From Rhizobium tropici CIAT 899 (GTDB lineage: Bacteria > Pseudomonadota > Alphaproteobacteria > Rhizobiales > Rhizobiaceae): a stretch of 64,000 nt of DNA. The stretch covers positions 472,717-536,716 of the forward strand of contig NC_020061.1 in assembly GCF_000330885.1 (NCBI RefSeq), in the 5' to 3' direction. The first letter of the stretch is position 1, and every line of letters starts with the position of its first letter. Shown here in pieces: positions 9,026-58,853 of this stretch. The notes below the pieces were generated by a model. That model searched no databases, had not been told where the DNA came from, and saw only the letters and a list, made by a program, of their open reading frames with translations. A program made the position numbers and the translations under genes.

Positions 9026-10069
9026 TTATACGGGAGCGCCAGCCAATGCGTTGAACATTTCTCCTGTTTTGAGCATACTATGCATGATGACGGCAAGCTT
9101 TCGGGCGACCGCCACCGCAGCGCGCTTGAAGCCAAGCCGGTCACGCAGCTTGAGCCCCCAATTCTTCAGACTGCATTCGGTCCTAGCACTGGTTCTTGTA
9201 AGAAGCACCATCGCCGCTTCGTAAAGCAGCCCACGCAGACGGTTGTCGCCTCGTCGCGAGATATGGCCGTCATAATCGACCTCTCCTGATTGATAACGCC
9301 GCGTTGTCAATCCAAGCCAGGCGCCAACGGAGCGCGACTTTTTAAAGTTGTCTGGGTCTTCGATTGCGGCGACATACGAGATGGCGGTGACGGCGCCGAC
9401 CCCTGGGATCGTCATCAAAAGCTTGGTCTCCTGACTTCCCCGTGCTGCCGCGAGCAACTGGTGATCAAGACCGGCAGCGCGTCTTCGTATGTCGCACCAG
9501 GCGTCGAGCAGAGGCAATATGATCTTAGCCAAGGCGTCATTCCCATCCAGGAATTGTCTCACGTTCCCGTCAAATATTCGCCCCCTCCCTTTCGGGACAA
9601 TGAGACCGAAAGTCTTCATCAGACCGCGAATTTGATTGCTGAGCTGGGTCGAGATGCTGAGCAACTGATTGCGAGCGGTCACCAGCGTGCGTGTCAGCAT
9701 GCTGTCGAATGCCTTTACCCGAACCGTCTTGTAGAATCCGGCTTCGGCCAAATGAGCTAAGCCATCCGCGTCATTGGCATCCGTCTTGTTGAGCGTCTCA
9801 TCCAAAATCCTTTGGGCGTGCCGCGCTTCGATGCAGATCGCCGGCACTCCTTCGGCCGTGAGCGCATGATAGAACCACGTAGATAACGGACCCGTCTCGA
9901 ATACAACGCGCTTGGCGTGAGGGGCGTGCCTGCGGATCATCTCCGACAAAAGTTTTGGGTCGGATGGGCACTTTCCCCGCCAGATCCGCTTCCCCTCCTG
10001 TCGGATCGAGATTGCAGTTTCTTTCAATGAAACGTCCAGCCCTATATATTGGTCCACGGTTGCCTCCAT
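9026..10069 (-). CDS. IS110-family transposase (DEDD recombinase)
   Basis: A 347-residue transposase. The N-terminal RuvC-like DEDD domain begins YIGLDVSLKETAISI (first Asp) and continues with FETGPLSTWFYHAL (Glu) and NKTDANDADGLA (Asp pair). The C-terminal transposase-20 domain contains LMTIPGVGAVTAISYVAAI and carries the conserved Ser region near GLTTRRYQSGE. The ATG giving MEATVDQYIG was preferred over an upstream in-frame ATG because it gives the usual start. Intact and possibly active. Confidence 0.92.
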   Translation of the reverse strand: MEATVDQYIGLDVSLKETAISIRQEGKRIWRGKCPSDPKLLSEMIRRHAPHAKRVVFETGPLSTWFYHALTAEGVPAICIEARHAQRILDETLNKTDANDADGLAHLAEAGFYKTVRVKAFDSMLTRTLVTARNQLLSISTQLSNQIRGLMKTFGLIVPKGRGRIFDGNVRQFLDGNDALAKIILPLLDAWCDIRRRAAGLDHQLLAAARGSQETKLLMTIPGVGAVTAISYVAAIEDPDNFKKSRSVGAWLGLTTRRYQSGEVDYDGHISRRGDNRLRGLLYEAAMVLLTRTSARTECSLKNWGLKLRDRLGFKRAAVAVARKLAVIMHSMLKTGEMFNALAGAPV

Positions 10070-23732: not shown

Positions 23733-24067
23733 TCACACAATGATGCATGTTGGTCTACTCAGTGAGTCCAAGACAGGATCGCCGGTCCAGTCTTCATGTC
23801 TATGGCGTATTCGGATCACGAAAATTGCTCCGTTTTCCTCGATCTTGTAGACAATAGGATGGGCCTCGAACGGATGAATTCTAACGGTGGCGAAATCTCT
23901 TCCAGCTCACGTGCCATTCGCGGGTTGGCGGCAATGAGGTCAAGCACAGCGAACAAGTCATCATGATATCGCCTCGCCTGTGTGGATCCGAACATGCTTA
24001 CACCTTGTTCGGCGATCGCAATGATGTCCTCTTCCGCCTCAACTGAAAGGCTAAAATTAAAATGCAT
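23733..24067 (-). pseudogene. ParE-type toxin, frameshifted and orphaned
   Basis: It starts MHFNFSLSVEAEEDIIAIAEQGVSMFG and continues YHDDLFAVLDLIAANPRMARELEEISPP, the RelE/ParE toxin pattern. After EISPP the family sequence shifts frame near 23880 and reads IHPFEAHPIVYKIEENGAIF, then VIRIRHRHEDWTGDP, ending at 23733. No antitoxin gene lies upstream. Loss of both frame and partner fits decay of an addiction system. Confidence 0.75.
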
Positions 24068-24233
24068 TATCTGCTGCCGCGCATAGTATCCACACGCGCG
24101 ACTGCCGCAACAAAGAAGGCGCCGAGCTTCGCACTTGACCGCAGGAGGCAATATCAATGACAGGCCGAGGGTTGGAATTCGCGTGATTTGATCGACAACG
24201 AGAAGCGTTTGCCAAAAACGCCTCCAGTCCCGA

Positions 24234-27200
24234 TCAAGGTGTGGGTTCGATGACTTTATGCTGAGATGGAGTCATCTCTAGGGATTTCCCTGTATCGCCG
24301 CCGAGATCGCCTGGCAAATTACTGAACTCCGTCTCTCGCCCGCAGGTCGCATGGCGTCGAAGCGCTCGGCGATTGAACGATTTGAGCAAATTTTGCAGGT
24401 CGTCGACGAAGGTGAAGATGACCGGGATAATGATGAGGCTGAGCAGCGTTGATATCATCACGCCTCCGATCACCACAATGGCCATCGGCTGCCGGAAGCT
24501 GGAATCCCCACCCGACAGGCTGAGCGCGGCCGGCAGCATGCCCGAGGCCATGGCTATGGTGGTCATGACGATCGGCCGCGCCCGCTTGTGGCAGGCATCG
24601 ACGAGCGCATCGAACCGGGACATGCCTCGGCGACGTGACATGATCGCATATTCGATGAGAAGGATGGAGTTCTTCGTCACAACGCCCATCAGCATGAGAA
24701 GGCCGATGACGGCAGGCATCGAGAAACTGGTGCCCGTCACCACCAGCGGCACCAGCGCGCCGCCGAGCGAGAGCGGCAGGGCCATCAGAAGCGTGAGCGG
24801 CTGCAGGAAATCGTGGAACAGCAGGACGAGCACCGCATAGATGCAGAACACACCGATCGCCATCGCAAGCGCGAAGCTCTGGAACAGCTCGGAGCTGCGC
24901 TGCAACTCGCCCTGTTCCACCAGCGTAACGCCTGGCGGCAGATGCTGGAGAGCCGGCAGCGCCTTCGCCTCGCGGTTGACATCGCCCAGAATGCGGCCGT
25001 TGAGTTCGACGGAAACGGTGACATTGCGCATGCGGTCGATACGGTCGATCTCCGAAGGGCTGCCGCCGATGCGGACATCGGCAATCGATCCGAGATCGAC
25101 ATTGCCATTGGTGCCGGCCACCCGCATGGTCTTGATATCATCCAGACTGGTGCGCGTTTCCGGCGAGAAGCGGACGACGATCGGGATCTGGCGTTGCGGC
25201 AGGTTGAGCTTCGGCAGGTCGGAGGAATATTCCCCATTTGTCGCCACGCGCACGGCGCTGGCGATCGCATTCGACGTTACCCCGAGCGCTGCGGCGCGCG
25301 CAAAGTCGGGCGTGATCTGAATTTCCGGCGCCTGCCTTGCGGCCGTTGATGTCACCGCACCGATGCCATGCAGCGTGCGCAACTGCTCCTCGAGCGCCGT
25401 GCTTGCGCTATCGAGCGCACTGGCATCGTCGCTGGCCAGAGTGAACTCGAGCTTGGTACCGTTGCCGATACCGACCGCCACACGCACTCCGGGGAGGACG
25501 GAGAGCGCCTGCCGGATATCGTTTTCGATCTCCGACTGCTTGCGGTCGCGCTCATCAATCGGCGTCAGCGTGGCGACGATCGCGGCAGACCCGACACTGC
25601 TCCTGGCGACCGTCGCACCACCGCCCGAGGATCCCGAGCCGATAGCCGCAAACACATGTGTCACGTCGGGAATCTCACTGAGAATATCTGCGGCCTTCCT
25701 GGTTGCGGCGTCGGTTTGCTCGACAGTGGCGCCGGGCTGCAGGGTGAGCGTGATCTGCGTCCGCGAGTCGTCAGCGGCTGGCAGGTATCCCGTTCTTAAG
25801 AGGGGGATAACGGAAAGCGAAACCGCAACGACGACGGCAGTCACGGCCACTGTTGTCTTCCGGTGATCGAGGGCAGCCTTCGCGAGCGCCATATAGGCGC
25901 GCATGATTCGGCCATCCTTCTGCTCCGACGGATGAGCCTTCATGAAATAGGCTGCCATCATGGGGGTAAGCAGACGCGCAACGACAAGCGAGGCAACGAC
26001 GGCAACAGCGGCGGTGATGCCGAACTGACGGAACAGGAGGCCCGGTATGCCGCTCATGAATGCCGTCGGCAGGAAGACGGCGACCAGCGTGAAGGTGGTG
26101 GCGATGACGGCCAGCCCGATCTCGTTGGCCGCCTCCATCGCGGCATCGATCGGCCGCTTGCCCATCTGCAGGTGGCGGGCAATGTTTTCAATCTCGACGA
26201 TGGCGTCGTCGACGAGAATACCTACCACAAGCGACAGCGCCAGCAAGGTGACGACGTTCAGACTGAAGCCCGCCAGGTACATGACCAGGAAGGTCGGTAT
26301 GACCGACAAGGGCAGTGCCACAGCCGACAGGATCGTCGCGCGCCAGTCCCGAAGGAAGAGCCAGACAACCACGATCGCCAGGATCGCACCCTCATACAGT
26401 ATGTGCATCGCGCCGTCATAATTGCCGAGAATTGACCCGATCAGGCTGTAGACTGCATGGATCTGCACATTGGGATGCGACGCTGCGAAATTTTTCATTG
26501 CCGTGTTAACGTCAGCCGAAACGCTGCTGTCGGAAAACCCGTTCGAACGCTTGATTTCGACGGCGATCACCGGCTTGCCGTCGAGATAGGCCATCGAGGT
26601 GCGCTCCGCGAAGCTGTCCTTGACCGAGGCGATGTCGTCGAGTCGGGCCTGCTGCCCGTTAGCGAGCGGTATAGTGAGCTCCCTCAGGGCCTCGACCGAC
26701 TCTACGGCGCCGAGCGTGCGCAATGTCTGACGCGTGCCGCCGACTTCGCCAAGGCCGCCAGACTTGTCGGCTTGCACGGCCTTCAACTGCGCTGATACGG
26801 TCGCGGCGGTGACGCCGAACGACGCCATCGTCGAAGGATCGAGATCGACATGGACCTCGCGATCGATCCCGCCGATGCGGTTGACCTGGCCGACGCCCGG
26901 GACCGATAGCAGTGCCTTGGTCAGATCGTTATCGACAAACCAGGAGAGTTCGGTCTCGTTGAGAGCGGTCGAGCGGACGGCATAGGTGACAAGTGCGGAG
27001 CTTTGGACGGTGGCCTTCGTAATGATCGGCGTCGCCATCTGTGCCGGCAGATCGGCCTTGACGCTATCGACGGCATTGCGGACCTCATTGAGGGCCGTTT
27101 CGCTGTCTTTCTCCAGCTTGAAGGATACCTTGGTCGAGACGGTGCCGTCGGTGATCGTCGTGAGAATATGATCGAGATGGCTCAAGGAGGTGAGGCTATC

Positions 27201-27404
27201 CTCGATGGTGCGGGCAACCTCCGTCTCGAGCTGCGTCGGCGCAGCGCCGTCGAGCGTGGCGGTGACACTGATGGTCGGCAGGTCCATATCCGGAAAGTAC
27301 TGAACCGCCAGCTGTTTGAATGCCCAAAGCCCACCAAATCCAAACATCACAAACAGCAATATCGCTGGTATGGGATTGCGGATCGAGAAGGCGGAGAAAT
27401 TCAT
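24234..27404 (-). CDS. nolG: RND efflux permease, NolG-like (HAE1/AcrB family)
   Basis: A 1056-residue inner-membrane proton antiporter with 12 transmembrane helices and two large periplasmic loops. It begins MNFSAFSIRNPIPAILLFVM. TM4 carries the proton-relay Asp pair in GILVDDAIVEIENIARHLQ, followed by TM5-6 AVFLPTAFMSGIPG. Its start overlaps the stop of the membrane-fusion gene by one base. In Ensifer meliloti a nod-box locus contains nodM, nolF and nolG (an MFP/RND pair of similar sizes). The same order after a nod-box nodM here makes nolG the best name; a nodN gene is not seen downstream. Likely exports a symbiosis-related compound; substrate unknown. Confidence 0.8.
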   Translation of the reverse strand: MNFSAFSIRNPIPAILLFVMFGFGGLWAFKQLAVQYFPDMDLPTISVTATLDGAAPTQLETEVARTIEDSLTSLSHLDHILTTITDGTVSTKVSFKLEKDSETALNEVRNAVDSVKADLPAQMATPIITKATVQSSALVTYAVRSTALNETELSWFVDNDLTKALLSVPGVGQVNRIGGIDREVHVDLDPSTMASFGVTAATVSAQLKAVQADKSGGLGEVGGTRQTLRTLGAVESVEALRELTIPLANGQQARLDDIASVKDSFAERTSMAYLDGKPVIAVEIKRSNGFSDSSVSADVNTAMKNFAASHPNVQIHAVYSLIGSILGNYDGAMHILYEGAILAIVVVWLFLRDWRATILSAVALPLSVIPTFLVMYLAGFSLNVVTLLALSLVVGILVDDAIVEIENIARHLQMGKRPIDAAMEAANEIGLAVIATTFTLVAVFLPTAFMSGIPGLLFRQFGITAAVAVVASLVVARLLTPMMAAYFMKAHPSEQKDGRIMRAYMALAKAALDHRKTTVAVTAVVVAVSLSVIPLLRTGYLPAADDSRTQITLTLQPGATVEQTDAATRKAADILSEIPDVTHVFAAIGSGSSGGGATVARSSVGSAAIVATLTPIDERDRKQSEIENDIRQALSVLPGVRVAVGIGNGTKLEFTLASDDASALDSASTALEEQLRTLHGIGAVTSTAARQAPEIQITPDFARAAALGVTSNAIASAVRVATNGEYSSDLPKLNLPQRQIPIVVRFSPETRTSLDDIKTMRVAGTNGNVDLGSIADVRIGGSPSEIDRIDRMRNVTVSVELNGRILGDVNREAKALPALQHLPPGVTLVEQGELQRSSELFQSFALAMAIGVFCIYAVLVLLFHDFLQPLTLLMALPLSLGGALVPLVVTGTSFSMPAVIGLLMLMGVVTKNSILLIEYAIMSRRRGMSRFDALVDACHKRARPIVMTTIAMASGMLPAALSLSGGDSSFRQPMAIVVIGGVMISTLLSLIIIPVIFTFVDDLQNLLKSFNRRALRRHATCGRETEFSNLPGDLGGDTGKSLEMTPSQHKVIEPTP

Positions 27405-28477
27405 CAGTTCTTCTCCGCAATCTTCACGAGGTCATTGTCCGACAGAAAGGCACCGCCTGACGTCACGACCTTCGACGACCGATCGATGCCGAAGACGATC
27501 TCGACTTCACCATTGTTGCGGCGGCCGGTTTCGACGCGGACCCGTCGCACCCGCTTGTCCTCGCCGGCGGTGAAGACGTAGCTGATGCCATCCCGGAACA
27601 CGATTGCGGTCTCGGGGACGGTGAGCGCCGGTGTGGTCTGCAACTCGATGCTGCCCGTGACGTAGAGGCCGGTCCGCGGACGAATGTCGGCGGGAAGCGC
27701 GACATAGACGATCGCCCGGCTGGTGTCGGTGCTGACCGAGGGTCCGACAAGCCGCACCTTGCCGGCAATGACGTGACCTTCCGGCCCGTTGATCCTAACG
27801 CTCAAGCCTTCCGAAATGCGCGGCAGATAACGCGCCGATACTTCGGCCTGCCATTCGACACGCTGCTGGCGCACCATGCGGAACAGCTCGGTGCCGGTGG
27901 AGACGACGGCGCCGAGATCGGCCGAACGCGAGGTTATGAGGCCATCGTCGGCGGCGGTGATAGTCGTCTGCGCAAGCTTGATCTTTTCACTGTCGAGCGC
28001 GGCTTCCTCGGATGTCAGGCTTGCCGTCGCCGTCTGCTCGTCGGCCAGATATCCAGTGATTTTCTCGTCGGCGAGGGCCCCCGAAGTGCTGAGCTGGCGT
28101 GCACGATCCGCATTCGCCTTGGCCTTTGTCAGATTTGCCTTGGCAGTCACGACAGCCGCCTCCTGCTTGCGAAGGTCCGCCAGCACGCTCTCCTGCGAAA
28201 GCCGGGCCAGCGTCTGCCCCTTCGTGACCACGGACCCGACATCCGCCAGGACGTCGGTGATGCGCAGGCCACTCGTTTCGGACGCGATGATTGCTTCCTG
28301 CCAGGGCTTCAACCAGCCGCTCGCGGGAACGGTCTCCGGCCAGTCCCGTATTGCCGGCGCCGTCAGAGAAACCGTCAGAGCGGGTGCGGCCGCCTGTTCA
28401 GCCATGCTATTGGCGCAGGGAAACTGGAGTGCTGCACAGACAAGAACGGCAGCGAGTAGAAGACACGGTTTTCTCAA
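27404..28477 (-). CDS. nolF: RND membrane-fusion protein, NolF-like
   Basis: A 357-residue periplasmic adaptor. Signal peptide or anchor MRKPCLLLAAVLVCAALQF with possible cleavage after NSMA. A lipoyl half-motif follows (GWLKPWQEAIIASETSGLRITDVLADVGSVVTKGQ), then a coiled-coil hairpin (about residues 95-165), the second lipoyl half (TTITAADDGLITSRSADLG), and beta-barrel and proximal domains ending VVTSGGAFLSDNDLVKI. The stop overlaps the permease start. No outer-membrane TolC gene is adjacent, so the pair must use one from elsewhere. Named nolF from context with nodM and nolG. Confidence 0.8.
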   Translation of the reverse strand: MRKPCLLLAAVLVCAALQFPCANSMAEQAAAPALTVSLTAPAIRDWPETVPASGWLKPWQEAIIASETSGLRITDVLADVGSVVTKGQTLARLSQESVLADLRKQEAAVVTAKANLTKAKANADRARQLSTSGALADEKITGYLADEQTATASLTSEEAALDSEKIKLAQTTITAADDGLITSRSADLGAVVSTGTELFRMVRQQRVEWQAEVSARYLPRISEGLSVRINGPEGHVIAGKVRLVGPSVSTDTSRAIVYVALPADIRPRTGLYVTGSIELQTTPALTVPETAIVFRDGISYVFTAGEDKRVRRVRVETGRRNNGEVEIVFGIDRSSKVVTSGGAFLSDNDLVKIAEKN

Positions 28478-28901
28478 ATGGCAATTCCTCGCAGTTCACG
28501 GGTGTCCGCGCTCAACCGTGGCGTCAAAAATGTCGGCTGTTGTGGTGCAAAGTTGAAATGCCTGACGGTCTCGAAGGTGACAAAACTCAACTGTTCAAAA
28601 CATCTTGGCGACACCAGTGATGTCGGGCTATTCCGCCGTCCAAAGCAGCAGTTTTTTGTCGGCGACTCCGTCAGAGATCGCCAATCAGCTGCTGGATTGA
28701 GCCAGGATTGGGCGCACTCGCCAACTATAACAAGACCACCTACGGCCGGGGAGAGGCTAGCGTTTTGAGGACACTGGCATCCGATTGGACCAGGGAAACA
28801 CAGAGTCAACGTTGTCTTCGAGGCGGTGAATACCGCTAAATCGCCTCTTAAGGTTCGCGTGGGACAATAGAGCCTGTTGCGCCGACGTTTGCTGCGTCTG
28901 G
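28478..28901. other. Intergenic stretch between nolF and the flavin reductase
   Basis: About 420 bases without a supportable frame. It does not contain a second nod box that I can see. If nolFG are co-transcribed with nodM they must be read through this gap; otherwise it holds their own promoter. Confidence 0.4.
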
Positions 28902-29432
28902 TCATCCTATTGCGTATGCTGCTTCCTCGACAGCCCGGCCTACACGCATGCGGATGGCCTCGGAAATCACCTCCCCGTGGGCGAAGTCATTACGGGTGGC
29001 ATAGATTGCGGTCGGCATCGCAAGCGCTTCAAAGAACCCGAACAGAGGGCGCAACTGATGCTCGACGACAAGCGAATGACGCTCGCCTCCGCCCGTCGCA
29101 GCGATGATGATAGGCTTGCCCCTCAGCGATGTTGGATCGAGCAAATCGAAATAGTGCTTGAATAGGCCGGTGTAACTGCCCTTGTAGGTGGGTGAGCCTA
29201 CAACCAGGACGTCTGCCTCCAGCATTTGGTCTACGACCCCGCGTGCTTGAGCGCTGAGGTCGTCTAGCCGTTTGGCCGCCAATAGTGAAGGTCCAAGGTC
29301 ATCGACATCGAAGGACTGCGCCACCGCTCGCGTTTTGATTGCCAATTGCCCGACGATATGGTCGACGAATGTGCGCGTCGTGGACGGTCGTGTTATGTTC
29401 CCCGAGAAGCCAAATATCTTCGTTTGCGGCAT
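28902..29432 (-). CDS. NAD(P)H-dependent FMN reductase
   Basis: A 176-residue flavodoxin-like reductase. MPQTKIFGFSGNITRPSTTRTFV holds the phosphate-binding loop for FMN, and VLVVGSPTYKGSYTGLFKHYFDLLD is the family signature, followed by KPIIIAATGGGERHSLVVEHQLRPLFGFF. This resembles SsuE/MsuE-type reductases that supply reduced flavin to two-component monooxygenases. The start giving MPQTKIF was preferred over an in-frame start four codons earlier. It lies 71 bases after nodM on the same strand and may share the nod-box transcript. No monooxygenase partner is adjacent, so its role in the locus is open. Confidence 0.85.
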   Translation of the reverse strand: MPQTKIFGFSGNITRPSTTRTFVDHIVGQLAIKTRAVAQSFDVDDLGPSLLAAKRLDDLSAQARGVVDQMLEADVLVVGSPTYKGSYTGLFKHYFDLLDPTSLRGKPIIIAATGGGERHSLVVEHQLRPLFGFFEALAMPTAIYATRNDFAHGEVISEAIRMRVGRAVEEAAYAIG

Positions 29433-29503
29433 GTCGATCTCCAAATGCTCAGCAGTTATAAGTCATCTAAACTCTGTCATTCGTCCCTTACGGAAACGAT
29501 GAC

Positions 29504-31330
29504 CTATTCGACGGTGACTGATTTCGCCAGATTGCGCGGCTGATCGACGTCCGTGCCCGCAAACACGGCCGTATGATAGGCGAGTAGTTGGACCGGCAGC
29601 GAGAAGATCATCGGCGCAATGATCTCGTCCACATTTGGAAGAACGATTGTTTGCATCGTGTCGAGCTTCAAGGCGCGAGCGCCCTTCTCATCCGTGATCA
29701 AGATGATCCGTCCGCCGCGGGCCGCAACCTCCTGCATGTTGGAAGCGGTCTTATCGAAAAAGCGGTCGTGTGGTGCGATCACGATAACCGGCATGTTCTC
29801 ATCGATGAGAGCAATTGGACCGTGTTTCAGTTCGCCGGCAGCATACCCTTGCGCGTGAATATAGGAAATCTCCTTTAGTTTCAGGGCGCCTTCCATGGCC
29901 AAAGGGAAGCTGGTTCCGCGGCCAAGATAGAGCACGGCGCGGCACTTTGCCAATTCACGCGACAGAAGTTCGATCCTGGGTTGGATGCTGTTGAGCACCT
30001 GCCCAATGACGCGCGGCATCTCGGCAAGCCGGGCGACCAGTGTCTGTTCCTCCTTCTCCGTAAGGGTGCCACGCGCCCTGCCGGCAGCAACCGCGAGCGC
30101 AGCCAATACGGCGAGTTGGCATGTAAAGGCCTTCGTAGACGCAACGCCGATCTCCGGTCCGGCGAGGATCGGGAACACAGTGTCGGACTCTCGTGCTATC
30201 GTCGATTCGGGCGTGTTGACGACTGCACCGGTCTTCAAGCCGTGCTCCTTGCAATAGCGTAGGCAAGCAAGTGTATCGGCCGTCTCGCCCGACTGTGAGA
30301 TGAAGAGAGCTGCCACCTGTGGCGAGAACGGGATTTCGCGGTACCGAAATTCGGAGGCGACATCAATTTCGACCGGCAGACGTGCGTAGTGCTCGAACCA
30401 GTATTTGCCGATTAGTCCGGCCAAGTACGCAGTGCCGCAGGCGGAGATCGCCAAGCTTTGCACGTTGGTGAAGACGGTGTCGCGCCAAGCCGCGACCACC
30501 TGATTGTCGCTGAAGTTGATGTAATGGCCAAGGGTATCGGAGATGGCCTCCGGCTGGTCGTAAATCTCCTTCTCCATGAAATGGCGATAGTTGCCCTTGT
30601 CGATCATATGGGCCGTCACCACCGAGATCTGCCGCGGTCGGGTGGTGACCTTTCCGTCGATATCGAAGATACGGACGCCAGTCTTGTCGATGACCGCCCA
30701 ATCGCCGTCGATCAGGTAGGTGATCTCGTTAGTGAAGGGCGCCAGCGCAATCGCGTCCGATCCGAGAAACATCTCGCCGCTTCCGTGACCGATCGCGAGC
30801 GGCGGGCCATTCCGGGCAGCCATGATGGTCGAAGGGTCCTCCTCGAAGAGCAGAGCCAGCGAGTAAGCGCCTCGGACGCGCTTCAGCATCGCATGCATAG
30901 CTTCGCGCCGGGCCATGCCGTCCCGGCGAAGTCTTGCCACGAGATGCGCGATGACCTCCGTGTCGGTGTCGGTTTGGAACTCGGTGCCGGCCGCGGTCAG
31001 CTCATCCTTCAATTCGGCGAAATTCTCGATTATCCCATTGTGGACGACTGCGATGCCGTCGCTAAAATGTGGGTGGGCATTGCGTTCCGTCGGCGCGCCA
31101 TGGGTTGCCCAGCGCGTATGGCCAATGCCGATTGTGCCCGCCAGGGGCAGTTCTTTCAGCTTTGCTTCAAGGTTGAGGAGCTTGCCCTCACAGCGCCGGC
31201 GATGGAGCGCTCCACCGTCGATCGTCGCGACGCCTGCCGAATCGTAGCCACGATATTCAAGCCGTTTCAATGCGTCTATCAACCGGTCCGAAACCGGATG
31301 ATGGCCGACAATACCCACAATCCCGCACAT
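29504..31330 (-). CDS. nodM: Glutamine-fructose-6-phosphate aminotransferase NodM
   Basis: A 608-residue GlmS-type enzyme that makes glucosamine-6-phosphate from fructose-6-phosphate and glutamine. The N-terminal glutaminase starts MCGIVGIVGHHPV (catalytic Cys right after Met) with HTRWATHGAPTERNAHPH. Two SIS domains follow (AISACGTAYLAGLIGKYWFE; SQSGETADTLACLRYCKEHG; VASTKAFTCQLAV), ending PRNLAKSVTVE. The ATG before CGIVG was chosen because the Cys must be the mature N-terminus. A nod box lies about 180 bases upstream on the same strand, marking it as nodM, the symbiotic duplicate that boosts amino-sugar supply for Nod factor. Confidence 0.92.
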   Translation of the reverse strand: MCGIVGIVGHHPVSDRLIDALKRLEYRGYDSAGVATIDGGALHRRRCEGKLLNLEAKLKELPLAGTIGIGHTRWATHGAPTERNAHPHFSDGIAVVHNGIIENFAELKDELTAAGTEFQTDTDTEVIAHLVARLRRDGMARREAMHAMLKRVRGAYSLALLFEEDPSTIMAARNGPPLAIGHGSGEMFLGSDAIALAPFTNEITYLIDGDWAVIDKTGVRIFDIDGKVTTRPRQISVVTAHMIDKGNYRHFMEKEIYDQPEAISDTLGHYINFSDNQVVAAWRDTVFTNVQSLAISACGTAYLAGLIGKYWFEHYARLPVEIDVASEFRYREIPFSPQVAALFISQSGETADTLACLRYCKEHGLKTGAVVNTPESTIARESDTVFPILAGPEIGVASTKAFTCQLAVLAALAVAAGRARGTLTEKEEQTLVARLAEMPRVIGQVLNSIQPRIELLSRELAKCRAVLYLGRGTSFPLAMEGALKLKEISYIHAQGYAAGELKHGPIALIDENMPVIVIAPHDRFFDKTASNMQEVAARGGRIILITDEKGARALKLDTMQTIVLPNVDEIIAPMIFSLPVQLLAYHTAVFAGTDVDQPRNLAKSVTVE

Positions 31331-31510
31331 ACATTCTCCGCGTTTTCGCATATCGGCCACAACGCACTCACCTAGTCCGTCAGTCTGGAGTGAGCGAAGC
31401 TGCTTCACTCCTTGATCGCCATGACGGCTATCATTCCGTCAGAACTCCGTGGCAAAACCGTCGTGCTGTCGCGCTAAGCCAAATTCAGCGCGTTCTAACG
31501 GCACTCGACT

Positions 31511-31557
31511 TATTGGAAAAATCGATTCTTTGGATCGCACCCATTTACGTCATGGAT
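31511..31557 (-). promoter_or_regulatory. nod box (NodD-binding promoter element)
   Basis: Read on the minus strand the 47 bases begin ATCCATGACGTAAATG and, after six bases, give ATCCAAAGAATCGATT followed by TTTCCAATA. This aligns without gaps to the nod-box consensus I know (ATCCAT, GATG, then ATCCAAACAATC, then ATTTTACCAAT), with only scattered differences. It points at nodM. NodD bound here with a plant flavonoid would activate transcription of nodM and perhaps the genes beyond. No nodD lies in the window. Confidence 0.88.
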
Positions 31558-33274: not shown

Positions 33275-33733
33275 CTAGGCTTTGGCGCCCTCAATCTGCT
33301 TTGAAGCGGCTTTGGCAGTCTCGGCTTGGATGGCAATCCGACGCGACTTCATCTCCACAGGTGTTTCCTTCTTGAGATTGATGAGGAGTAGCCCGTTTTC
33401 GAGCTTTGCTCCTTCGACGATCACGTGATCAGCCAGCTCAAATCTGCGCACAAACGACCTTACGGGAAGGCCTTGATGCAGATACAGTGCTTCGTCGTCC
33501 TCGGACTTCGCGCCGTTCACCACGAGCATTTTTGCCTCGTGGGTGATCGTCAGTTCGCTTTCGGCAAAACCTGCCACCGCGATCGCGATGCGATACGTGT
33601 CTTCGCCGAGTTTTAGGATGTTGAAAGGCGGCCACTTGTCGGCGTTAACGCTGGCATTTTCGAGAAGATCGAATATGCGGTCGAAGCCGATGCTGGACCT
33701 ATAGAAAGGGGTAAGATCGAGGTTTGTTCTCAT
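33275..33733 (-). CDS. Small heat-shock protein (Hsp20, IbpA/HspA class)
   Basis: A 152-residue class A rhizobial sHsp: MRTNLDLTPFYRSSIGFDRIFDLLENA is the IbpA-type N-terminus. The alpha-crystallin domain follows (YRIAIAVAGFAESELTITHEAKMLVVNG) with VEGAKLENGLLLINLKKETP. The two tandem sHsp genes belong to different classes, a usual arrangement in rhizobia. The first ATG (33733) sits directly behind a ROSE-like thermometer whose helix masks the Shine-Dalgarno, so translation should rise with temperature. Confidence 0.93.
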   Translation of the reverse strand: MRTNLDLTPFYRSSIGFDRIFDLLENASVNADKWPPFNILKLGEDTYRIAIAVAGFAESELTITHEAKMLVVNGAKSEDDEALYLHQGLPVRSFVRRFELADHVIVEGAKLENGLLLINLKKETPVEMKSRRIAIQAETAKAASKQIEGAKA

Positions 33734-33795
33734 AGCTACATCCTCCACGGAGCAACATAGATACGAGGAACGCCAAGAAGCTCGGCGCCCCTGAC
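33734..33795 (-). promoter_or_regulatory. ROSE-like RNA thermometer
   Basis: Directly before the sHsp start the leader reads TTGCTCC, two bases, then GGAGGATGTAGC and six bases on the ATG. The Shine-Dalgarno GGAGGA can pair with the TTGCTCC arm. This is the arrangement of ROSE elements, where a conserved U-U/C-G-C-U segment hides the ribosome site at low temperature. A second stem (CGCC...GGCG) lies just upstream. Identification is by motif and gene context. Confidence 0.7.
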
Positions 33796-34311
33796 GTAGT
33801 CGACTCTTTTTGGCGTCGACGACAGATGAAATGGGTAGCTAGCGAGGTAGGGTCAAGAGGGCGCGCAAGACTTTTCGAGCGGGAGTGACTCAAACAATCA
33901 CTATAAGTTCATACGGTTAGAAATCTAGACGTTCGAGAGCTTTGGAATCTCACCATCGTGTTAAAACCGCAAAAATCAAAACCGAGATAGGTTGGCGCGA
34001 TGCCAAATGGATTACAGTTCGCGCGTCATTTTCATTCCGATGCCGCGCGTAGAAACTCATAAGAACCTCTTTGTCCATGCGCAGAAGGTCGTCACGTTCG
34101 ATCTCTCGAACGATGGTAATCTGAAGTGAAATTCCTTTCGAACGCTCGGGAGAAGATGCCGTAGGGCGTCGAATCTCGCCAATATGGTCAAGGTTAAGCT
34201 CGGCCCCAAGGCGCAACGCGGTTATGATGCCCGCGTGTGGTAACACTCGGTCCACCCAAGGAGAACGGATGTCGCCACGGCGATAACTGCAGGTGTCTTG
34301 GCGCTTCGCCG
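33796..34311. other. Intergenic stretch with no gene seen
   Basis: About 515 bases between the sHsp leader and the depolymerase gene. Several open frames cross it, but none shows recognisable protein features. It presumably holds the heat-shock promoter near its left end. Confidence 0.4.
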
Positions 34312-39729: not shown

Positions 39730-40113
39730 CGATCAAGCCCGTCTCGATGGGTCGTCCGTGGCGGTGCAGCACGCGCATAGCTGCATTGCACAATAAATGT
39801 TTTCCTTCCGATCAAAAATTAATCATAGTGCACACAGCTGATGCACATGGCGGATTTCCTCCCAGTGCCGCCGCAGCAGCTGTTCCCCTCTGGAGGTTTA
39901 TTGACCTTCACGCTTCATGGGCCGCGGTTTTCGCTGGCCCATTTTTTTTGTTCAGGTCATCCGACGATTTATCCGCGCACGATCCTGACGCGACTCCCCT
40001 TGCCAGCAAACTGCGCGTGGTCCGATAGCATCTGACACTTTCGGGCTTGTGAGGCATGGGCCCCTTGTCCATCTTGTGGTCTTCGGTCCATTAGGACAGA
40101 TTGGAGCTATCGA
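39730..40113. other. Intergenic stretch with no gene seen
   Basis: About 380 bases; no frame has recognisable content. Confidence 0.4.
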
Positions 40114-45358: not shown

Positions 45359-47870
45359 TTACGTGTTCAAGGCGTCCTTCAGAGCCTTGGCAGGCTGGAA
45401 GCCCAGCTTTCTTGCCGCAGCAACCTTGATCGCCGCACCGGTCGACGGATTGCGGCCTTCGCGCTCCGGGGTATGCTGTCGGGTAGGAACGACCCGTTGC
45501 CGGGCCGCTCCTCCCTAAGAACTGTACGTGCGAGTTTCCCAGCATACAGCTCAAGCCTCCGCCAAGCCCTGTTAGACCAGAGCCGCCAGTTCCTGTGCAT
45601 CGGTATGAGATGTGGAATCACCGGGCCGATCCGTAACTTCCGACGGCAGACCGCGCCTTCCGGCGAAGTAGCTGTCCCACATGGGATCGAAAGGATTCGC
45701 TTCGGCGCGGATTTTGCAGTGGCGACGTATCGGTACGTCGGATGCGTGGATGAGGCGGATGAACTTGAAGTTTCCTGCCTTATCCTTCATCCCGGTGCGG
45801 AATACCCAGTCTCGTGTACCTTCCCGAGCGAAGTAACGATACTTCACCCAGCGAAGCGGCTTGTCCGGGTGTCTACGACAGGCCCACTGCCAGAGACATT
45901 TCCAGATGAGATGATCGACCTTGCGAAAGGTCTCCTTCGCCACCTGGTTGTGATGATAATTGGTCCATCCCCTTATGACCGGGTTTAGCGACATTATCAG
46001 ATACTCCTGCTTCACATCGGCGGCACCCTTGGTGATAGTTCGGATCTTGCGCATAAACGCCACCACGTTCTTCTTGGCGGGTTTGATGTGGGTATGCCCA
46101 TCATATCTGCGCACGTTCCAGCCGAGGAAGTCGAAACCTTCCTCGACCCGCACGATGCGAGTCTTTTCTTCAGACAGAGACAGGCCCCGTTCTGACAGAA
46201 ATTCCTCGACCATAGATTTCGCCTCCTCCAGCACTTCTTTTGAAGCACCTGTGACGACGAAGTCATCGGCGTAACGTATCAAGTGGACCTTGGTCAGGCT
46301 GTTGCGACGTCTTGGGCCGTAGAAGTCCCGTAACATCTTTTCCATTCCGTCCAAGGCCATGTTGGCGAGCGTGGGCGAGATTATTCCCCCTTGCGGAGTT
46401 CCCGCTTTCGTCGCGTGCCAGTCACCGTCCTTTATGTAACCGGAGTCCAGCCACTTCCGGAGCACCACCTTGTCCATGGGGATGTTGGCGATGAGCCAGT
46501 CCTTGCTGATTTCGTCGAAGCAGCCAGCAATGTCCGCATCCAAGACCCATTCCGCCGTGCCGCGCCCGCGCAGCGCGATAAAGCACTGCCGGGCCGCATC
46601 ACGGGTTGCTCGATACGGTCGAAAACCGTACGAATTAGGGTCTGCCGTCGTTTCCGCGACAGGTAGCAGAGCGAGCAGGTGAAGTGCCTGCATGGCCCTG
46701 TCCTTCATCGTCGGAATACCGAGCGGACGCAGTTTCTTGCTGTTTGCTTTCGGGATATATACCCGCCTCAACGGCAAAGGATGATACCCACGCCGTTTGA
46801 GCGACAATAATCCTCTGACGCACTTATCCGGTGTGTCCCAGATGATCCGGTCCACTCCGGGTGTTCTCTTTCCCTGATTTCCAGTAACCCGTTTCACCGC
46901 AAGCGCCTTGCCGCTGAACGAGTGGGTCAGCAGCCGTTGCAAGGCTTTCACCTTGCCCCAGCGACCTTCCTTAACTGCCTTCGCAATACGCATCTGCAGC
47001 CGTCGCACGTGTTGGTAAGCCTTGCGCCAGTCAATCTGGCCCCAGCTCGCCGCTTCGCGGGAGGCCGCACCAGTCACTGTTGTGACCGTCATTTGCCTGT
47101 CCTCCTGCCGAGGGTTCTGCACATTCTCTCGCGACGGGAGACCCGTCGGAAGTCTGCTCCCTTTCGGGCGGGGTGATGTTGGCGAGCCGCAACCCCTGTC
47201 CAAACCATTACAGTCCGGCGTTCGCTTTCTCCGACATCCTCTGCCCGCACCGCCAACAACTTTCCTTGCGGTCGGCCTGCCCATTGCCGGGCGACGATGC
47301 GGGTTTACCGTGTTTCACCTAAATAACGCGGGCGGGTTAGACCCTGCCTATCCGCCGGCGGTCCTTCGTCCGTGTGCCTCCAAAGTGAAGAGAAGCATCC
47401 GACCGCACACCTTTTGGTTCAAGCCTGTCAGCATCTTTGGCTTGTCAAATTTCACGACGTTTATCAGCAGTTCATTTGCATTGATCATACCACCCAGCCT
47501 AGCGCCCCATCCGCATTGATGCTCGCAGAAGATGCCTCAGCCTCACGACATCGGCATGGCCCGAAGGCCCGGCTACATTGTCCCGGCAGCTTCAAACCGG
47601 ACCGTTACCAGTCCCGCATGTGCCGGTAGGCTACTGATGACGGAACATCAGGTTTGTCCCGGAATATAAATCCCGTACAAACAATTACTTAGGCGACTTT
47701 CACGTCGCACTCACCTTGAATTTCCCGAAGCCGGGAATGAACGTCTCGGCGCCGGAGGTGGCAGCGGCCGTGATCGCCGCAAATACAGCTTCGACGATCG
47801 CCTTTCCCTGCACCTTCGTCAGGCCGTGGTCTGACGCGATCTTGTCAGCGATTTCATTTGTCGTGGTCAT
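45359..47870 (-). CDS. hup: HU-type DNA-binding protein gene split by a group II intron
   Basis: Exon 1 (47870-47711, 160 nt) encodes MTTTNEIADKIASDHGLTKV...AAITAAATSGAETFIPGFGKFKV. Exon 2 (45477-45359, 119 nt) encodes HTPEREGRNPSTGAAIKVAAARKLGFQPAKALKDALNT. Together they make 279 nt, exactly 93 codons, and the junction codon reads AAG (Lys) in the expected GKFKVK-x-TPEREGRNP HU signature. HU dimers bend and compact DNA. Without splicing the protein would stop four codons into the intron, so expression depends on RNA splicing. A plasmid-borne HU may act in plasmid compaction or transfer. Confidence 0.88.
45478..47710 (-). mobile_element. Group II intron
   Basis: A 2233-bp intron. The 5' end reads GTGCGACGTGAAAGTCGCC, the usual GUGYG start with a short domain I stem. 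Domain V is visible at 45519-45552 (GAGCTGTATGC, then GGGAAACTCGCACG, then TACAGTTC), the most conserved group II structure. A domain VI-like hairpin follows, and the intron ends ...CTACCCGAC. It carries its own reverse transcriptase. Exact insertion in an HU frame with restored codons supports a splicing-competent element. Confidence 0.93.
45572..47092 (-). CDS. ltrA: Group II intron reverse transcriptase/maturase
   Basis: A 506-residue intron-encoded protein in domain IV. RT blocks: RVYIPKANSKKLRPLGIPTMKDRAMQ, SYGFRPYRATRDAARQ, WVLDADIAGCFDEISKDWL, GTPQGGIISPTLANMALDGME, then the active site LIRYADDFVVTG (YADD). The thumb/maturase domain X surrounds WTNYHHNQVAKETFRKVD. The C-terminal region (RRHCKIRAEANPFDPMWDSYF) resembles the end of HNH-containing types, but no full HNH motif is clear. 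The ATG giving MTVTTVTGAASREA was chosen because upstream residues are atypical. Needed for splicing and retrohoming. Confidence 0.93.
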   Translation of the reverse strand: MTVTTVTGAASREAASWGQIDWRKAYQHVRRLQMRIAKAVKEGRWGKVKALQRLLTHSFSGKALAVKRVTGNQGKRTPGVDRIIWDTPDKCVRGLLSLKRRGYHPLPLRRVYIPKANSKKLRPLGIPTMKDRAMQALHLLALLPVAETTADPNSYGFRPYRATRDAARQCFIALRGRGTAEWVLDADIAGCFDEISKDWLIANIPMDKVVLRKWLDSGYIKDGDWHATKAGTPQGGIISPTLANMALDGMEKMLRDFYGPRRRNSLTKVHLIRYADDFVVTGASKEVLEEAKSMVEEFLSERGLSLSEEKTRIVRVEEGFDFLGWNVRRYDGHTHIKPAKKNVVAFMRKIRTITKGAADVKQEYLIMSLNPVIRGWTNYHHNQVAKETFRKVDHLIWKCLWQWACRRHPDKPLRWVKYRYFAREGTRDWVFRTGMKDKAGNFKFIRLIHASDVPIRRHCKIRAEANPFDPMWDSYFAGRRGLPSEVTDRPGDSTSHTDAQELAALV

Positions 47871-57700: not shown

Positions 57701-58853
57701 CTGGGTTTGGCCAACGCTGCTTATCATCGCCTCGGTCGGCGTCGGATCGGTGGCATGGAGCGGCCACGTGCTGTTGTTGCCGGTGGCGCTCGGCTTTCCC
57801 GTCCTCTGGTCGCTGTCGAGAACGAAAAAGACGGCAACCTTGGTTTCCGCAGCATATTTCCTGTCGGCGTCGCGCGGCCTGCCGCAAGGCGTGGCCACCT
57901 TCTATGCTGCGGATATCTGGCCGGGCCTGCTGCTGTGGCTGGCTGCCTCGGCCAGCTTTGTCGCGGCGCATGCGCTCCTGTGGACGAAGGAGGTTGGCCT
58001 TCGTCCGGGCCGCTACGTCCTGGCGGCCGTACTGATGGTGGTTCCCCCTTTCGGCATTACCGGCTGGGCGCATCCCATCACGGCCGCAGGCGTGTTGTTT
58101 CCGGGATGGGGATGGTGGGGACTGGCCGTCACGACAGCCGGCTTGGCGGGCCTCGTTTCCCGCCTCTGCCCAACTGTCGCCATGGGCCTTATAGGCTTCT
58201 GGCTTTGGTCCGCCGCTTCGTGGACGGACCCGAAGCTACCGGAAGCCTGGCGGGGCGTCGATCTCGAATTGGGTGCGTCGGTCGGGCGGGACACCAGCAT
58301 GGCCCGCCACCGTGATCTAATTGCAACGGTGCTTGAACGAGGGACCGACGGTGTTCGAACCGTCATCCTTCCTGAAAGTACGTTGGGCTTCTGGACGCCG
58401 ACGGTCGAACGGCTTTGGATCCGCGCGCTATCAGGGCATGACACGACCGTTCTCGCGGGCGCGGCAGTCGTTAACGCGGCCGGATACGACAATGTGGTGG
58501 TTGCAATCTCCGCAGATAGCAGTCGGATCCTCTACCGGGAACGGATGCCGGTTCCGGGCTCGATGTGGCAGCCCTGGCAGCCGCTCTTCGGCGGCAACGC
58601 CGGAGCGCAAGCGCACATCTTTGCAAATCCTGTCGTCGCGCTCGGCTCCGGGCGGGTGGCGGTGCTGATCTGCTACGAGCAACTGCTCGTCTGGCCGGTC
58701 TTGCAATCGATGCTCGGCAGTCCGGACGTGATCGTTGCGGTCGGCAACGGCTGGTGGACCAAAGGCACGTCCATTGTCGCCATCCAGCGCGCCAGCACCG
58801 CCGCCTGGGCAAAGCTGTTTTCCAGGCCAGTCGTTTTTTCTTTCAACACCTGA
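57690..58853 (+). CDS. traB: TraB, nitrilase-fold membrane protein
   Basis: A 387-residue protein. Several N-terminal transmembrane helices (about residues 5-180) precede a carbon-nitrogen-hydrolase domain. VRTVILPESTLGFW has the Glu, LYRERMPVPGSMWQP the Lys/Arg region and VAVLICYEQLLVWPVL the Cys. The layout resembles apolipoprotein N-acyltransferase. In Ti plasmids traB raises transfer efficiency but is of unknown reaction. Overlaps traF by 11 bases. Confidence 0.92.
   Translation: MRHDWVWPTLLIIASVGVGSVAWSGHVLLLPVALGFPVLWSLSRTKKTATLVSAAYFLSASRGLPQGVATFYAADIWPGLLLWLAASASFVAAHALLWTKEVGLRPGRYVLAAVLMVVPPFGITGWAHPITAAGVLFPGWGWWGLAVTTAGLAGLVSRLCPTVAMGLIGFWLWSAASWTDPKLPEAWRGVDLELGASVGRDTSMARHRDLIATVLERGTDGVRTVILPESTLGFWTPTVERLWIRALSGHDTTVLAGAAVVNAAGYDNVVVAISADSSRILYRERMPVPGSMWQPWQPLFGGNAGAQAHIFANPVVALGSGRVAVLICYEQLLVWPVLQSMLGSPDVIVAVGNGWWTKGTSIVAIQRASTAAWAKLFSRPVVFSFNT

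Follow-up and report, generated by a model that had tools for sequence, protein, structure and literature searches.

In the 64,000-nucleotide stretch of Rhizobium tropici CIAT 899 analyzed here (the window; positions 472717-536716 of replicon C3, the symbiotic plasmid pSym of 549,467 bp), a nod box is followed on the minus strand by nodM, an msuE-type reductase gene and the two genes of an RND efflux pump. We think it probable that this locus is a NodD-controlled unit of nod box, nodM and msuE that was joined by an RND pump common in Rhizobium, and the pump is not NolFG. The nod box, nodM and reductase induction have already been published. What is new is the apparent capture of a pump in a nod-box cassette, the retention of the box after decay of nodM, and an outer-membrane partner behind a nod-box-like site in relatives.

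The 46-bp nod box (31512..31557, minus strand, as are all genes of the locus) matched a consensus pattern with 0 mismatches, and 0 of 100 dinucleotide shuffles matched. With a slightly looser pattern no other site in the 6.69-Mb genome was free of mismatches; at three or fewer mismatches the same scan returned five sites including this one, all on C3. Between the box and the ATG of nodM (31330) lie 181 bp. The box is the published NB3, for which a distance of 180 bp to nodM is given; the unit listed for it consists of nodM and the flavin mononucleotide (FMN) reductase gene (PMC4782375). nodM (29504..31330, 608 amino acids, RTCIAT899_PB02710) occupies C3:502223-504046 without its stop codon, and was published at 502220-504046 on pRtrCIAT899b, of 0.55 Mb (PMC4782375). 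Next come the msuE-type, NADPH-dependent FMN reductase gene (28902..29432, RTCIAT899_PB02705), a 424-bp intergenic region (28478..28901), and the genes of the periplasmic adaptor, or membrane fusion protein (MFP; 357 amino acids, 27404..28477), and of the RND permease (1056 amino acids, 24234..27404). No nodN was found after the RND gene in the locus, the next gene found downstream being a ParE-like toxin gene (23816..24157, minus strand); the best NodN match in CIAT 899 (67%) lies on chromosome C1, and none lies on pSym. An earlier note, made from the sequence letters, had reported the nod box upstream of nodM, the order nodM, flavin reductase, MFP and RND on one strand, the gap of 424 bp and the missing nodN, and each of these was confirmed; the box likewise matched the nod-box pattern beyond shuffle chance. 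Its statement that the locus dates and types the plasmid as symbiotic stands for the type, the plasmid being pSym, while the dating finds no support beyond that identity.

The same note read the MFP/RND pair as NolF and NolG, and the whole as a rearranged Ensifer meliloti nodM-nolF-nolG-nodN locus, with nodN missing and a flavin reductase added. That proposal fits the arrangement of gene types downstream of the nod box, and the best match of Sinorhizobium meliloti NolG in CIAT 899 is indeed this permease (34%), which makes NolG and the pump permease distant relatives. The permease is 33% identical to NolG of S. meliloti 1021, and is closer to a paralogue in its own genome (C1:2770023, 43%, the nearest of 16 matches that include the permease itself). 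The adaptor gave no tblastn match at E 1e-5 in the unannotated S. meliloti 1021 locus, where, by position, we take the adaptor-sized open reading frame, the permease and the NodN-sized frame after nodM to be nolF, nolG and nodN. In a 57-row permease tree, seven pSym permeases grouped together as a single clade (SH-aLRT 100) nested in that of the Rhizobium pumps, and 21 NolG-type rows formed a separate clade. Constraining the seven with the 21 cost 170 log units (approximately unbiased (AU) test, p 0.00038), in a test made on a quick tree with the other CIAT 899 paralogues on long branches. From one homologue search, 20 of 24 matches became loci and all 20 are in the tree, L123 was left out, and rows below 40% identity, the NolG row among them, were dropped from the tblastn cassette table. 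Orthology to NolFG is thus rejected by the 33% identity, the lack of a NolF match and the AU test; the pair clusters with other pumps, and because it is not NolFG the locus is not a rearranged E. meliloti type, a reading to which we now give next to no weight. The acidic pair and the lysine that serve as proton relay in RND permeases are present in the expected segments. The pump genes presumably bear the tags PB02700 and PB02695, a guess from the numbering, and neither tag was found in the main texts of the papers searched. A 2024 classification reserves the RND family of Nod-factor exporters for one small clade, D, which includes the pump of Baev et al. 1991, and nolFG has been termed characteristic of Medicago-nodulating Ensifer. 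In the available portion of the CIAT 899 genome paper, nodM appears by name and the RND drug pumps are put at 12, this pair not being named there, and the available text of the open-licence PMC literature yielded no description of this pump beside nodM.

Of 148 Rhizobium genomes, 84 hold relatives of the pump at E <= 1e-299, a count that takes in the cassette carriers, and the lowest identity among these relatives is 61%; the strict E cut-offs of the genus searches hide distant paralogues. We compared 17 distinct pump loci without nodM (16 fetched and one annotated record, a selection that was not random). In the stretches covered, no nod box with 5 or fewer mismatches came up at any of the 17, and 12 carried response regulator and kinase genes, namely R. 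sophoriradicis and 11 of the 16 others; at one of the loci (L115) these lie about 5 kb from the pump. The remaining five comprise a locus with a more divergent pair (L120), one with regulator pieces only (L127) and three with no close pair (L121, L122 and L125). Such genes were found in 0 of 13 cassettes and neither in the window nor in L128, and a search for the cognate kinase elsewhere in CIAT 899 gave no close match (best-scoring, 31%). The cassette copy is the sole close pump copy in CIAT 899, and it falls in the sequence clade of the Rhizobium two-component-linked pump while having no adjacent regulator or kinase. The two-component-linked pumps of R. sophoriradicis pCC511_1 and NXC24 pRspNXC24c have an MFP and a permease 85-93% identical to those of CIAT 899; they are divergent from a response regulator and a kinase, and the stretches covered around them contain no nod box. 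Because the pSym pumps nest in the Rhizobium pump clade, we infer that the pump moved to pSym from another replicon, in that direction. It would have joined once, before the tested symbiotic plasmids of the R. tropici group, calliandrae and sv. mimosae diverged, and would have lost the two-component regulator that most of the examined relatives carry. The ratio of nonsynonymous to synonymous change in the permease was 0.086-0.152 in the 13 pSym pairs printed (values were printed for some pairs only), and the pump is therefore kept under purifying selection. Another genome (G024) holds a pump relative of 77% identity (8400-4196 of its locus) 683 bp behind a 2-mismatch nod box (9084-9129, minus strand), with no regulator match in that stretch. 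Its inclusion in the same capture was rejected, as it lies outside the pSym clade (AU p 0.013, in a test chosen after seeing the tree).

The nodM product is a full-length GlmS-type enzyme, has the GlmS motifs, and is 84% identical to NodM of S. meliloti 1021 and 74% to the chromosomal GlmS of CIAT 899. In a 38-row tree of 27 NodM and 11 GlmS rows it belongs to the NodM clade with support 100/100, in line with the nodM label of the earlier note; the enzyme would supply glucosamine-6-phosphate for Nod factors. The reductase frame spans 29444-28902 with an alternative TTG start at 29444, and its ATG is probably at 29432, as annotated in NXC24. The product scores 227 bits against the MsuE model NCBIfam TIGR03566 (cut-off 212.5) and is predicted to reduce FMN, with no monooxygenase partner alongside. 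Close msuE copies (at least 90% identity) occur in 14 of the 148 genus genomes, the 13 cassette carriers and G079, and always near this pump; the best outside Rhizobium, among the 25 matches listed from a plasmid collection, is 72% identical. In the one non-Rhizobium msuE locus looked at, that of Sinorhizobium terangae (reductase 72% identical to that of CIAT 899), genes for a luciferase-like monooxygenase and for an ABC transporter adjoin msuE, whereas the msuE of CIAT 899 has neither alongside.

nodM, msuE and the pump occur together in at least 13 of the 148 genomes among the matches listed, and each of the 13 complete cassettes examined, one copy fetched per genome, has a nod box with 0-1 mismatch (G005 has three near-identical cassettes and 10% contamination, and one was fetched). 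The box outlasts its first gene. Only a remnant of nodM is left in R. etli sv. mimosae Mim1 and IE4771, and likewise in NXC14, and a nod box (2 mismatches) and msuE remain; the MFP and RND frames are open in Mim1 and NXC14. Between IE4771 and Mim1, gaps left out, the box is identical at 44/46 positions, the stretch from box to ATG at 155/191 and the nodM remnants at 340/445. Fisher tests for conservation of the box gave p values of 0.009 and 0.0008 for this pair and of 0.025 and 0.003 for IE4771 and NXC14, the pairs not being independent and the box being short. Because the box is conserved while the nodM remnant decays, the comparison supports its continued use, most simply for msuE. A second copy in NXC14 has nodM and the box, a broken reductase and a truncated permease, and a nodM copy in NXC12 shows decay of the same kind.

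A tripartite pump requires a channel in the outer membrane. The OEP-family genes of CIAT 899 are two, one on C1 and one on C4, and with none on pSym its pump would have to borrow a channel encoded elsewhere in the genome; the window has no match to the outer-membrane gene of the relatives. Three relatives have an annotated outer-membrane subunit encoded downstream of the RND gene on the opposite strand: in CB3090 and CB3171 it is the neighbouring gene, and in CCGE531 it lies at a distance of about 3 kb. This gene shares 60-62% identity with the outer-membrane gene next to the pump of R. sophoriradicis; in two pairs compared, the identity is 92% and 95%. The CB3090 gene scores 426.8 bits against NCBIfam outer_NodT (cut-off 210.05), a broad subfamily. 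Upstream of the gene and on its strand stands a nod-box-like site, at 424 bp with 2 mismatches in CB3090, at 414 bp with 2 mismatches in CB3171 and at 126 bp with 4 mismatches in CCGE531, so that in these three relatives the partner would stand behind a separate site of this kind. Some kilobases behind the outer-membrane gene, a gene annotated rhiA is found in CB3090 (23356-23961 of L185) and CB3171 (23237-23842 of L188).

Whether NodD control reaches the pump is, from the sequence, about an even call. The retention of the box after nodM decay and the nod-box-like site at the outer-membrane gene together suggest that the pump has joined the nod regulon, and the kept order of nodM, msuE and pump counts for control that extends to it. 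Published expression values for nodM and the reductase are 2.43 to 3.18 with apigenin and, with salt, 5.85 (nodM) and 8.49 (reductase) (PMC4782375); in later papers the salt induction of nodM falls from 5.85 to 1.31 in a nodD2 mutant and to 1.08 in an onfD mutant. Several observations weigh against a captured, NodD-controlled pump. The salt values are significant, but the apigenin value of 2.43 for nodM by RNA sequencing is not (quantitative reverse-transcription PCR gave 5.69), and the published NB3 unit stops at the reductase, the RND pair being absent from the nod-box table (PMC4782375). The 424-bp gap separates msuE from the pump and contains a weak terminator-like site (28747-28734, minus strand), such sites being at chance level. 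The permease frame of IE4771 is broken while box and msuE remain, and the outer-membrane gene is absent from CB3060, CCGE532, NXC24, R. jaguaris and the window, in each over at least 8 kb behind the permease; in the other cassettes only about 3-4 kb are visible there. In NXC24, finally, the synonymous distance between the pSym copy and its own other copy is 0.097 for the MFP and 0.331 for the RND gene, a conflict for which gene conversion of the MFP between replicons is the likely cause and which blurs a single capture.

Much of this would also fit a pump that is transcribed from a separate promoter within the gap, is not controlled by NodD and is engaged in ordinary efflux, the box serving nodM and msuE only; we rate this explanation not far short of an even chance. 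Besides the end of the published unit at the reductase and the broken IE4771 permease, it can draw on the gap itself. The best conserved 40-bp interior block (28548..28587, minus strand, 71-110 bp before the adaptor start) agrees at 37/40, 37/40, 34/40, 30/38, 25/38 and 40/40 positions with six other copies; at 86% overall it resembles the two gene-edge blocks, compared with about 77-81% for three other interior blocks (summed by hand), and is a modest candidate for an internal promoter or regulatory site. Parts of the gap are deleted in the NXC24 and G048 copies. Promoter and terminator scans were at chance (4 found against a mean of 2.5, and 5 against 6.3), and the gap gave no convincing alignment by eye with the regulator-to-adaptor stretch of the relatives. 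A pump outside NodD control leaves unexplained that every one of the 14 genomes with a close msuE has the pump near it, and that a NodT-type gene with its own nod-box-like site faces the pump in three relatives. The latter finding raises the regulon and tripartite-assembly readings and lowers the idea that the pump is a bystander behind nodM and msuE with no symbiotic role. The absence of the pump from the available text of the CIAT 899 papers would suit a bystander, as would the NXC12 copy and the second NXC14 copy, where nodM is kept and the permease broken, and the IE4771 frame; the kept gene order, the purifying selection and the outer-membrane gene on three plasmids make it unlikely.

In the reading that we prefer, a captured pump added to the nod box-nodM-msuE unit, the pump would probably be drawn into the nod regulon by transcription that continues across the gap, perhaps in addition to a separate start. 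NodIJ is the likely exporter of Nod factors, and for this pump amphiphilic compounds such as rhizosphere plant phenolics are the most likely substrates, rather than Nod factor, as far as can be judged by inference. More tentatively, and with somewhat less than an even chance, the nod regulon may have built a tripartite pump from non-NolFG parts, unrelated RND pumps having been recruited repeatedly (NolFG and perhaps the G024 pump). If true, this would suggest that NodD-timed export of more than Nod factors is generally needed. The analysis corrects an inviting NolFG label in a much-studied symbiont of bean and puts a testable case of convergent assembly in its place; if the pump is NodD-dependent, one may ask what else flavonoid-sensing rhizobia export besides Nod factors.

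Other features were seen around the locus. A ROSE RNA thermometer (Rfam; 33727..33820, minus strand) overlaps the start of an Hsp20 gene (33748-33275, minus strand) that has a second Hsp20 gene (33336-32671, minus strand) next to it, and Hsp20 genes are annotated upstream of nodM also in CB3090, CCGE531, CB3060 and CCGE532. Matches to the ar15 small RNA family (109 bits, 39836..39946, plus strand), to two group II introns about 2 kb apart (45478..45554 and 47503..47652, minus strand) and to Atu_Ti1, a Rhizobiales small RNA family (58134..58225, minus strand), lie farther along pSym.

The locus is best appreciated next to two known nod-box units. With nod box locus 4 of S. meliloti (nodM-nolF-nolG-nodN) it shares the nod box, a NodM of 84% identity and an MFP/RND pair downstream; the pump of CIAT 899 is of another RND lineage, msuE and the 424-bp gap precede it, and nodN is missing. 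NodT is an outer-membrane efflux protein. R. leguminosarum nodMNT is listed as a nod-box unit, in which nodM stands with nodT, and this is matched by the NodT-type gene near the cassette in the three relatives. There, in contrast to nodMNT, the NodT-type gene is oriented towards the pump and has a nod-box-like site to itself; CIAT 899 lacks the gene.

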